DNA from: a bacterium
Lineage (GTDB): Bacteria; Patescibacteriota; Minisyncoccia; Phycocordibacterales; UBA2100
Reading direction: 5' to 3'
DNA: 44,743 bases
NCBI GenBank assembly: GCA_021781955.1
Contig: JAJXVV010000007.1
Coordinates: forward strand, 1 to 44,743
Part shown: positions 3,989 to 44,743 of the stretch, one piece after another
Numbering within the stretch: position 1 is the stretch's first letter
How the letters are laid out: each line of letters begins with the position of its first letter
Program-made: the position numbers and the translations under genes
The notes under the pieces: model-generated
The model's database searches: none
What the model saw: only the letters and a program-made list of their open reading frames with translations
Told to the model about the DNA's origin: nothing

Positions 3989-4595
3989 TATGCGGATGGA
4001 GAAGGGCGACCTATTTCTCTTGAGCGCGGTGGCGGTAGTAATCATCACGCTTGGCATAGGATTTTGGTTCATGAAGGGACGAGAAGCGCCGACGCCGCAA
4101 GCGACGCCAATCGCGACTTCAAATCCGCTTTTCGGTCTCCCAGGCGGTGATGCGGGGATAAAGGGTTCTGGCGCTTCGCCGGCGCCGCGCACGCCGCCGG
4201 CAGGTCAGCTCGAATATCACAACGTTCAGTACGGTTTCTCGCTCTTCTATCCGCAGAAACTCTCGGTAAAGCGATACGACGATCGTGGCGCGACCACACT
4301 TGTCTTTCAAAGCGTCGATCCGCCCGAAGGATTCCAGGTGTTCGTTGTTCCGTATAGCGGCACGACAGTGAGCGCGCAGCGCTTCGCGATGGACGAGCCT
4401 TCGGGCGAGCGGGTCAACCCGCGCTACGGCACGATCGACGGCGCCAACGTGGCCACCTTCTATAGTACGAGCCAGACACTTGGCGATACCTACGAAGTGT
4501 GGTTCATCCACGGCGGCTACCTCTACGAGGTGACGACCTTAAAACCGCTCGATACCTGGCTCCAGAGCATCATGCAGACGTGGCAGTTCATCTGA
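3989..4595 (+). CDS. Membrane-anchored hypothetical protein
   Basis: MRMEKGDLFLLSAVAVVIITLGIGFWFMKG single TM followed by an extracytoplasmic domain. ATG overlaps the upstream stop (tagtATG). Confidence 0.6.
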
Positions 4596-42545: not shown

Positions 42546-42635
42546 CCCGTCTCCCGTGCCATGGTCACCCGCGCCATCTCCGCCGGTGGAGCGATTATCC
42601 ACATCTTTCGCCACGCCGCATCGCGGTGAGCACGC

Positions 42636-42653
42636 GGGGGGGGGGGGTATAAT
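42636..42653 (+). promoter_or_regulatory. G12 homopolymer abutting a perfect TATAAT -10 box
   Basis: G tract 42636-42647 then TATAAT 42648-42653, ATG at 42663. Confidence 0.85.
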
Positions 42654-42662
42654 ACCAACCAT

Positions 42663-42773
42663 ATGAAATGGGGCTTTCTCTCCGCGATCGTTGCGCTCAT
42701 TCTCTCGGCGCTCGGCATTCACGTCGGCGCTCCCGCGGCGCAAACCGCAGCCGCTGCTACCCCCCCCCTCTAG
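42663..42773 (+). CDS. Signal-peptide fragment of the surface protein, stopped after a C9 tract
   Basis: MKWGFLSAIVALILSALGIHVGAPAAQTAAAATPPL* with TAG immediately after C9 (42760-42768). Confidence 0.8.
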   Translation: MKWGFLSAIVALILSALGIHVGAPAAQTAAAATPPL

Positions 42774-44743
42774 TGAAGTAGCGCAGGTGACCGCCCCGCC
42801 GCAAACAAGCTTCGATTCCGGTGCCGCAGCAAGAACCTCCTCGCCCCTAGCGTCCGTCGCCGCCATCCCACAATCCGCGCCCGCCACGATTTCGTTCCCG
42901 AAAGCCAAGCCGCAGCCGCTCGCCATCCAGGGGTCTCTCACCGTCTCGTCCCTCGACGGCAGCGTTCTGAACAACATAGCCGCGCTGCTCGCCAATATGG
43001 ACGCGTACCTTGCTTCGACGACTCCGCAGCGATCGGCAGCCGTCCCTCAGAGTGTCGCGGCAGGCGGCGCTCCCAACACGATCGCGGCCGCCAGCAACAT
43101 CGGCCAGCTCAGCAACGTGACGATCAACAACCCGACGATCACAGGATTGAGCGCGGGCGACATCCCCGACCTCTCCGGCAAATACCTCTCCCTTTCTGGT
43201 GGAGCCGTCACGGGCACGACGACGTTTGCGAAGGCGGTCGGCATCGGGACGACGGCGCCGAGCGAAATGCTTTCAGTTAATGGTGTTATTGGCGCAAGCG
43301 ATGCCTTCGGCGACGCGAACGGATTCAGCGGCTTCACATGGGGATCAGACCCAGGAATTCCATTGATCTCTATCGGCTGGCCGGGTTCAACGACAGACAC
43401 GAACTACATTAAATCTTCCGACGGTGATAACCATTCACTTGGAATTGGAGCTGCGACGACAGGATCGGGGAACATCCGCCTGCTGGCGGGACTTGGCAGC
43501 ATCATTTTCTACAACAACGCCGCTGAAACAATGCTGATCGACAGCGCCGGCAACGTCGGCATCGGCACCACCACCCCATGGGCGCGGCTCTCGCTCGACA
43601 CCTCGAATCTTGCTGCCGGCGTGCCGGAATTCACGATCGGCTCATCGACGCGGCAGGACTTCATCGTCACACAGGCGGGGAATGTGGGAGTTGGTACTTC
43701 GAGCCCGACTGCGCAATTCGTGATCGCAAAACCGGAAGGGAGTGTGATCGCGAGCAACGCATCCCAGCTAGTCGTAAGCCACACATCAAACGGGGCCGCG
43801 TACCCTTACGCAGGGATTGATCTTGTCCACTACGATTCAAATCTCTCGCAAAACCAAGGAGGCGCAGTTTTGAATTTCCTCAATGGCACGACGATAGAAG
43901 CGACCTTGCGTTTTGATTCCGGGATTGGCGTCGCAAATGGACTCGGCCTTATCAATGACACCAATAACGGCGTCATATACTTTTCAACGAACGAATCGAG
44001 CGATTCCTACAACACGCCGACCGTGCGCTTGCTCATAAACGCGAGTGGCAACGTCGGCATCGGGACGACGACGCCTGATACATTACTCACGGTCGGCAGC
44101 GCAACGCCCACCGGCGCGGTCGCCCACTTCGAAAACTCCACCGGCTCCTGCTACATCAACCCCACGACCACATCACTTTCCTGCTCATCCGACGCACGCC
44201 TCAAGACCAATGTGGTGCCGCTCACGAGCGCCGAGGGGCTCGCTGCGCTCTTGCAGCTCGATCCGATCACCTTCAACTGGAAGACCGAGAGCGCCACGAG
44301 CTCGCCGCACACCGGCTTCATCGCGCAAAGCGTGCAGACGATCTACCCCGACCTCATCTCGCAAGGCCCCGACGGTTACTACACGATGAACTACGCCGGC
44401 CTCACGCCGTACCTCGTAAAGGCCGTACAGCAGATCGCCACCATCAGCGATGCGTTCCAGCAAAACCTCATCGCATGGCTCGGCAATGCCGGAAACGGTA
44501 TCGACAACCTCTTCGCCAAGAATCTCTACGCGAGCAACGTCACGGCGCAAACCGCCAACTTCCAGACGATGGACGCCTCAACGACCAAGACGGACGAACT
44601 CTGCGTCGGCTCCGTCTGCGTCGATCAGCAGCAGCTCGCCGCCATGCTCGCCACGGCTGGCCAGCCTTCCGCGTCCCTCGTATCGCCCAACGCCCCAACC
44701 TCACCCAGCGCGACCTCGACGCCGCCGCAGCTCCAGGTCAACG
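42769..44743 (+). pseudogene. Body of large surface protein with endosialidase-type intramolecular chaperone (Peptidase_S74-like) domain; out of frame with its signal peptide, runs off window
   Basis: Continuous +1 frame I read from 42769 to the window end: SSEVAQVTAPPQTSF...TINNPTITGLSAGDIPDLSGKYLSLSGG...SDARLKTNVVPLTSAEGLAALLQLDPITFNWK...GFIAQSVQTIYPDL. Confidence 0.85.

Follow-up and report, generated by a model that had tools for sequence, protein, structure and literature searches.

The window, i.e., the whole stretch of DNA that was analysed, is the entire contig C2 of 44,743 bp, and its end is occupied by a gene for a secreted fibre protein, the 3' end of which lies beyond the contig. 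The genome consists of 741,301 bp in 12 contigs, is about 99.95% complete, and stems from a tiny, probably host-dependent cell of Candidatus Kaiserbacteria. The fibre gene possesses two homopolymeric tracts (Table 1): a run of G adjoins a TATAAT element, which is followed after 9 nt by the start codon, and a run of C is found within the coding region, immediately behind the signal-peptide segment. Transcription would appear to start a few nucleotides 5' of the ATG, which would make the message nearly leaderless.

Table 1. Features of the fibre gene in the window and positions of the tracts at the two other loci of the genome.
Feature	Position	Strand	Remarks
Weak candidate -35 element GTGAGC (tentative)	42626..42631	+	3/6 matches to TTGACA, 16-bp spacer; no better than background
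Promoter-side G12 tract	42636..42647	+	one of two runs of at least 12 in the genome; expected 0.001-0.006
TATAAT -10 element adjoining G12	42648..42653	+	from sequence; layout of poly-G, TANNNT and ATG enriched order-wide
Start codon and signal-peptide segment MKWGFLSAIVALILSALGIHVGAPAAQTAAAAT	42663..42759	+	from translation; signal peptide judged by eye
Coding C9 tract	42760..42768	+	in frame at C8/C11, out of frame at C9/C10
Body of secreted fibre protein	42769..44743	+	open to contig end; frame shifted relative to signal peptide
Peptidase_S74 domain (intramolecular chaperone of endosialidase)	44188..44355	+	PF13884, 64 bits (cut-off 22), E 5.4e-16
G10 in 5' coding region of secreted Fib_succ protein	C6:19462-19471 (L010)		from sequence
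G12 between head-to-head avd and RT genes	C10:71051-71062 (L011 10052-10063)		from sequence

As assembled, the frame of the ATG at position 42663 reads MKWGFLSAIVALILSALGIHVGAPAAQTAAAATPPL and is then closed by TAG (42771-42773); about 658 codons 3' of the C9 tract are open in a different frame and include the intact S74 domain. Replacement of C9 in silico by C8 or C11 joined the signal peptide to this body in a single frame of at least 693 or at least 694 amino acids, respectively, which is open to the end of the window and contains the S74 domain at residues 509-564 (E 5e-16, profile search). In the C9 state a TTG at 42691 also opens the frame of the body, but without the signal peptide. A first-pass annotation of the sequence had described this arrangement, i.e., G12 directly upstream of TATAAT, a signal peptide read into C9 and a stop, a body with an S74-like domain open in another frame, and fusion of the two at C8 or C11; coordinates, translation, profile match and in silico replacement bear it out in each part.

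Only four runs of G or C of at least 9 nt are present in the whole genome, and they are located at three loci: the G12 and C9 of the window, the G10 on contig C6 and the G12 on contig C10, that is, at the 5' ends of two secreted genes and in the core of one diversity-generating retroelement (DGR). Markov models of order 2-4, trained on 89 kb of the same genome, predict per 741,301 bp 0.25-0.75 runs of at least 9 (4 observed), 0.04-0.15 of at least 10 (3 observed) and 0.001-0.006 of at least 12 (2 observed). On contig C6, the secreted protein MTVVAEIVRVLGSGIATFFAG... runs into G10 and terminates as assembled; at G9 or G12 it would comprise 696-697 amino acids with a Fib_succ_major domain at its end, and an S74 gene follows directly downstream. 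The end of the Fib_succ protein resembles a DGR variable region; no template repeat for it was found in this genome.

The DGR locus on contig C10 contains a bAvd gene on the minus strand and a reverse transcriptase (RT) gene on the plus strand, with G12 between them (profile search: RVT_1, E 1e-21; bAvd, E 1e-10). Template repeat (TR) and variable region (VR) differ at 20 positions, all 20 of them at adenines of the TR (17 A>G, 2 A>T, 1 A>C). Such A-specific substitutions from TR to VR are the signature of an active DGR, and with RT, bAvd and a TR/VR pair of this kind the locus has the components by which DGRs are recognised. At L011 15260-15908 part of the DGR cassette is present a second time, as a duplicated TR and an avd lacking its N-terminus (89% identity over 651 bp).

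The position of the tract on C10 was compared with other loci from RT-anchored searches, which comprised the genus and 80 Patescibacteria contigs (L132-L211). Among the 76 avd/RT junctions with enough sequence, 67 contained a run of G or C of at least 7 nt, compared with 2 of 5143 control windows taken from these loci. Six further junctions carried other repeats at the same spot, with unit lengths of 4, 4, 4, 4, 7 and 2, none of which is a multiple of 3; the remaining ones had a G6, a (GGC)3 and, in one case, no repeat. Tract lengths in the assemblies of the DGR set ranged from 6 to 14. In loci which are 83-90% identical over 1.4 kb, the same spot is occupied by G9, (TTGG)n, (TTGA)n or (TTCG)n. 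Swapping of the repeat type, with units that are not multiples of 3, is the expected trace of selection for a hypermutable site which breaks the frame. A junction tract is thus nearly universal in this DGR clade of Patescibacteria, and possibly this is a larger finding than that in the window itself. DGR RT starts in viral contigs were without a run of G or C of at least 6 nt in 71 of 74 cases; L261, a close relative among the viral-contig DGRs, has G11.

Several single loci may be recorded here. L276, a contig classed as viral with a DGR of the same clade, carries (CT)19 at roughly the position of the junction tract. A DGR RT in L088 contains G10 (4049-4058) in its catalytic core, preceding LMGIPIGNLTSQ; only with G8 or G11 is this enzyme complete. 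In L129, where the DGR RT is more distant, an ATG is followed immediately by C9 (ATGACCCCCCCCCGC), i.e., by a tract of opposite sense, 17 nt beyond the site that aligns with residue 1 of RT.

Whether the junction tract is translated bears on the alternative which survives best, namely that Avd and RT start 3' of the tract at non-ATG codons and that the tract is an untranslated spacer between divergent promoters, similar to that of hifA/hifB. The head-to-head layout of the genes, the TTG often present after the tract in avd, and an ATG after the tract in 52 of 82 RT genes would fit such a spacer. So would the avd frames as assembled: among 65 loci with a unique length class, 17 were in frame, 23 off by one and 25 off by two, which is indistinguishable from equal shares and compatible with a slipping, translated tract as well as with an untranslated one. 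Against it stand the 30 of 82 RT genes in which no ATG follows the tract, and which must be read across it unless they begin at a codon other than ATG, and the avd strand, which has no ATG within 15 codons 3' of the tract in 75 of 80 loci and, for one or more length classes, an ATG 5' of it in all 80. Furthermore, in the 50 loci with an avd ATG opposite the RT His codon, the avd frame from this upstream ATG to the tract was open in 50/50 cases, versus 8/50 and 11/50 for the other frames; part of this evidence is non-independent, because the conserved ATG lies opposite the conserved RT histidine codon and an antisense frame bias feeds into the result. Outside RT coding sequence the figures are weaker, with 17/17 open versus 13 and 7. 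On balance we regard the spacer as unlikely, while granting it more weight than any of the alternatives treated below.

On the RT strand, TANNNT abuts the tract in 23 of the 52 genes with an ATG 3' of it, and adjoins it in 27 of all 82, where shuffling gave an expectation of 3.3. Sequences upstream of the DGR tracts matched a -35 element no better than shuffled ones (3.56 versus 3.29). Two arguments were discarded. The matching lengths which open both avd and RT are not independent evidence; one length class opens both, because a codon-aligned antisense His codon CAT reads ATG. A first impression that all avd genes are OFF, obtained from sites with G of at least 10 nt, was due to ascertainment bias, and the RT-anchored sample was used instead.

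In relatives, the dual layout of the window gene is encountered again. An S74 fibre gene of the same genus (L222, genome G064) encodes 1211 amino acids and has G9, then TAGTGT, then ATG, with a second G9 in codons 5-8; it is intact and in frame over its whole length. The same genome contains a second S74 copy with both tracts (L223), truncated where its contig stops. L099 possesses a G10 in its 5' coding region, and its frame holds over 990 amino acids. In genome G030, an S74 protein of 1516 amino acids (L224) has a coding G13 just after the signal peptide and would be in frame, counted from the ATG, at G12. Where the 5' end of an S74 gene of the genus can be seen, a tract is absent in most cases; that tracts are a general trait of S74 genes was therefore rejected, and they characterize a subset.

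For the promoter side, poly-G followed immediately by TANNNT and by ATG within 3-16 nt was counted in 297 genomes of the order: 50 instances were found versus 9 of the reversed pattern (binomial P 3e-8, a few sites being multiply counted through alternative ATGs). About two thirds of 30 such loci that were read are DGR RT genes; the window gene is among the others, as are genes whose products are secreted or pilin-like (L231, L240, L241). The proposal of the first-pass annotation that this gene is a phase-variable surface protein with two tracts thus gains from L222 and L223, and for the coding tract from L224. Its promoter switch fares less evenly, with the adjacency of G12 to TATAAT and the order-wide enrichment in its favour and a -35 region that does not rise above background.

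Among single observations in these sets, L240 has G10 and TATACT directly 5' of a type IV pilin-like gene (MNTTHSSSHTKAFTLIELLVVIAIIG). In L098, G10 (4053-4062) falls on the glycine-rich ATP-binding box of a gene that resembles histidine kinases and could possibly encode a phase-variable sensor. Upstream of a gene of unknown function, L092 (4020-4049) shows C19, GAG and then G9, the C19 being the longest run seen in the genus.

That the tract lengths are unreliable owing to sequencing or assembly errors, the true coding tract being a fixed C8 and the gene always ON, is improbable, if less so than the two explanations that follow. Long homopolymers are error-prone, the fibre gene is otherwise intact, and it shares with the C6 gene the property of being assembled exactly one base over its in-frame length. 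Such errors leave unexplained, however, that long runs occur at functional sites and that the place of poly-G is taken in some loci by repeats of other types, and they would have to account for an equal split of avd frames (17/23/25) across assemblies of many projects. Very unlikely is a decaying pseudogene, in which the C9 frameshift would be a fixed loss and the body would make no protein: the gene is out of frame as assembled, the contig ends inside it, and fibre genes turn over rapidly, yet the long open frame with its S74 domain persists 3' of the tract, a pseudogene would hardly retain TATAAT and a signal peptide beside two statistically extreme runs, and L222 provides an intact, in-frame relative with both tracts. 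Equally remote is a DNA or RNA structure of fixed length, e.g., a G-quadruplex-like element, a spacer or a binding site without phase variation; G runs are able to form quadruplexes and the tracts adjoin -10-like elements, yet where (TTGG)n, (TTGA)n, (TTCG)n or (AG)n stands in for poly-G, a repeat is retained and the G-richness is not, and the C9 of the window and the poly-C of avd have effects on the frame.

We consider it probable, at roughly 0.75, that the tracts are slipped-strand contingency switches acting on the S74 fibre and on the DGR core. As at other contingency loci, the repeats exceed chance, and a change in their length alters a frame or a promoter (C8/C11 ON, C9/C10 OFF; G12 abutting TATAAT). 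They also recur in relatives with differing lengths (L222, L223, L224; DGR junction runs of 6-14), compared at one genome per species and with all lengths taken as assembled. A tract directly 5' of the -10 element, as in promoter-spacer switches of the porA/fetA type, is likewise present. Gain or loss of C at 42760-42768 would shift the signal peptide into and out of the frame of the fibre, which would be ON at 8 or 11, and changes in the length of the G tract next to the -10 element could tune or gate transcription, so that the window gene would possess two switches in series, one on the promoter side and one in the coding region. At the DGR, the tract would be read as poly-proline close to the avd start, and slippage would toggle Avd on and off; on the other strand the tract would abut the -10 element of RT or be itself translated into RT. 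One tract could in this way serve both genes, as a frame switch for Avd and as a promoter-side or frame switch for RT. The role of such switches might be varied presentation of surface fibres together with intermittent diversification.

It is more apt to regard the window locus as the visible portion of a series of repeat switches that concern both surface fibres and the DGR core. With more reservation we lean towards a wider reading, in which the Patescibacteria DGR is itself a contingency locus: a junction repeat that is kept and re-invented would toggle the diversifier, and the fibres would be switched likewise, in two stacked layers. If this is true, minimal uncultured CPR cells would invest in stochastic surface variation, and targeted hypermutation would be limited in time by slippage switching of the mutator. 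The prediction should be directly checkable in existing metagenome reads.

Simple-repeat phase variation is known mainly from cultured, host-associated bacteria. In the open literature searched, with subscription papers mostly outside the search, no report was found of a gene in CPR bacteria that varies in phase through a homopolymer, in agreement with the first-pass annotation, which knew of no such example, nor of simple repeats or phase variation tied to control of a DGR; no report was found there of fibre tracts combined with a DGR-core tract in one genome, either. A hypervariable repeat gene has been reported in Gracilibacterium (PMC6851277). A Patescibacteria-restricted DGR clade 2 and aquatic CPR DGRs are described in those passages of Roux 2021 (PMC8144416) that were searched, and no mention of a conserved avd/RT junction repeat was found in them. 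The C10 locus, with RT, Avd, TR and VR, resembles these CPR DGRs, and its RT would belong to clade 2 on the basis of taxonomy rather than of a tree.

Homopolymer tracts at promoters of surface-protein genes are known from Neisseria fetA and porA and from Treponema tp0126 and tprL; for porA and tp0126, transcription is best at about 17 bp between -35 and -10 (PMC5320596, PMC7864442). The window gene is similar to these in having a homopolymer at or in the promoter core of a surface-protein gene, and differs by its second, coding tract, its weak -35 element and its CPR host. With the coding repeat contingency loci of Neisseria, of Haemophilus (lav) and of the Campylobacter phasome (PMC9022572, PMC6321876) it shares a repeat in the 5' coding region that determines, by its length, in which frame a surface protein is read; here, in contrast, the repeats occur in Patescibacteria, on an S74 fibre and a DGR core. 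Like other fibres with the Peptidase_S74/endosialidase chaperone, the window protein is secreted, repetitive and fibre-like and ends in an S74 domain on its C-terminal side; this copy is distinguished by its two homopolymer tracts and is truncated where the contig stops. In Haemophilus, an AT-dinucleotide repeat between the overlapping divergent promoters of hifA and hifB controls both genes. The DGR junction likewise has a single repeat between two divergent genes, but one that is mostly poly-G/C and lies within the coding frame of avd.
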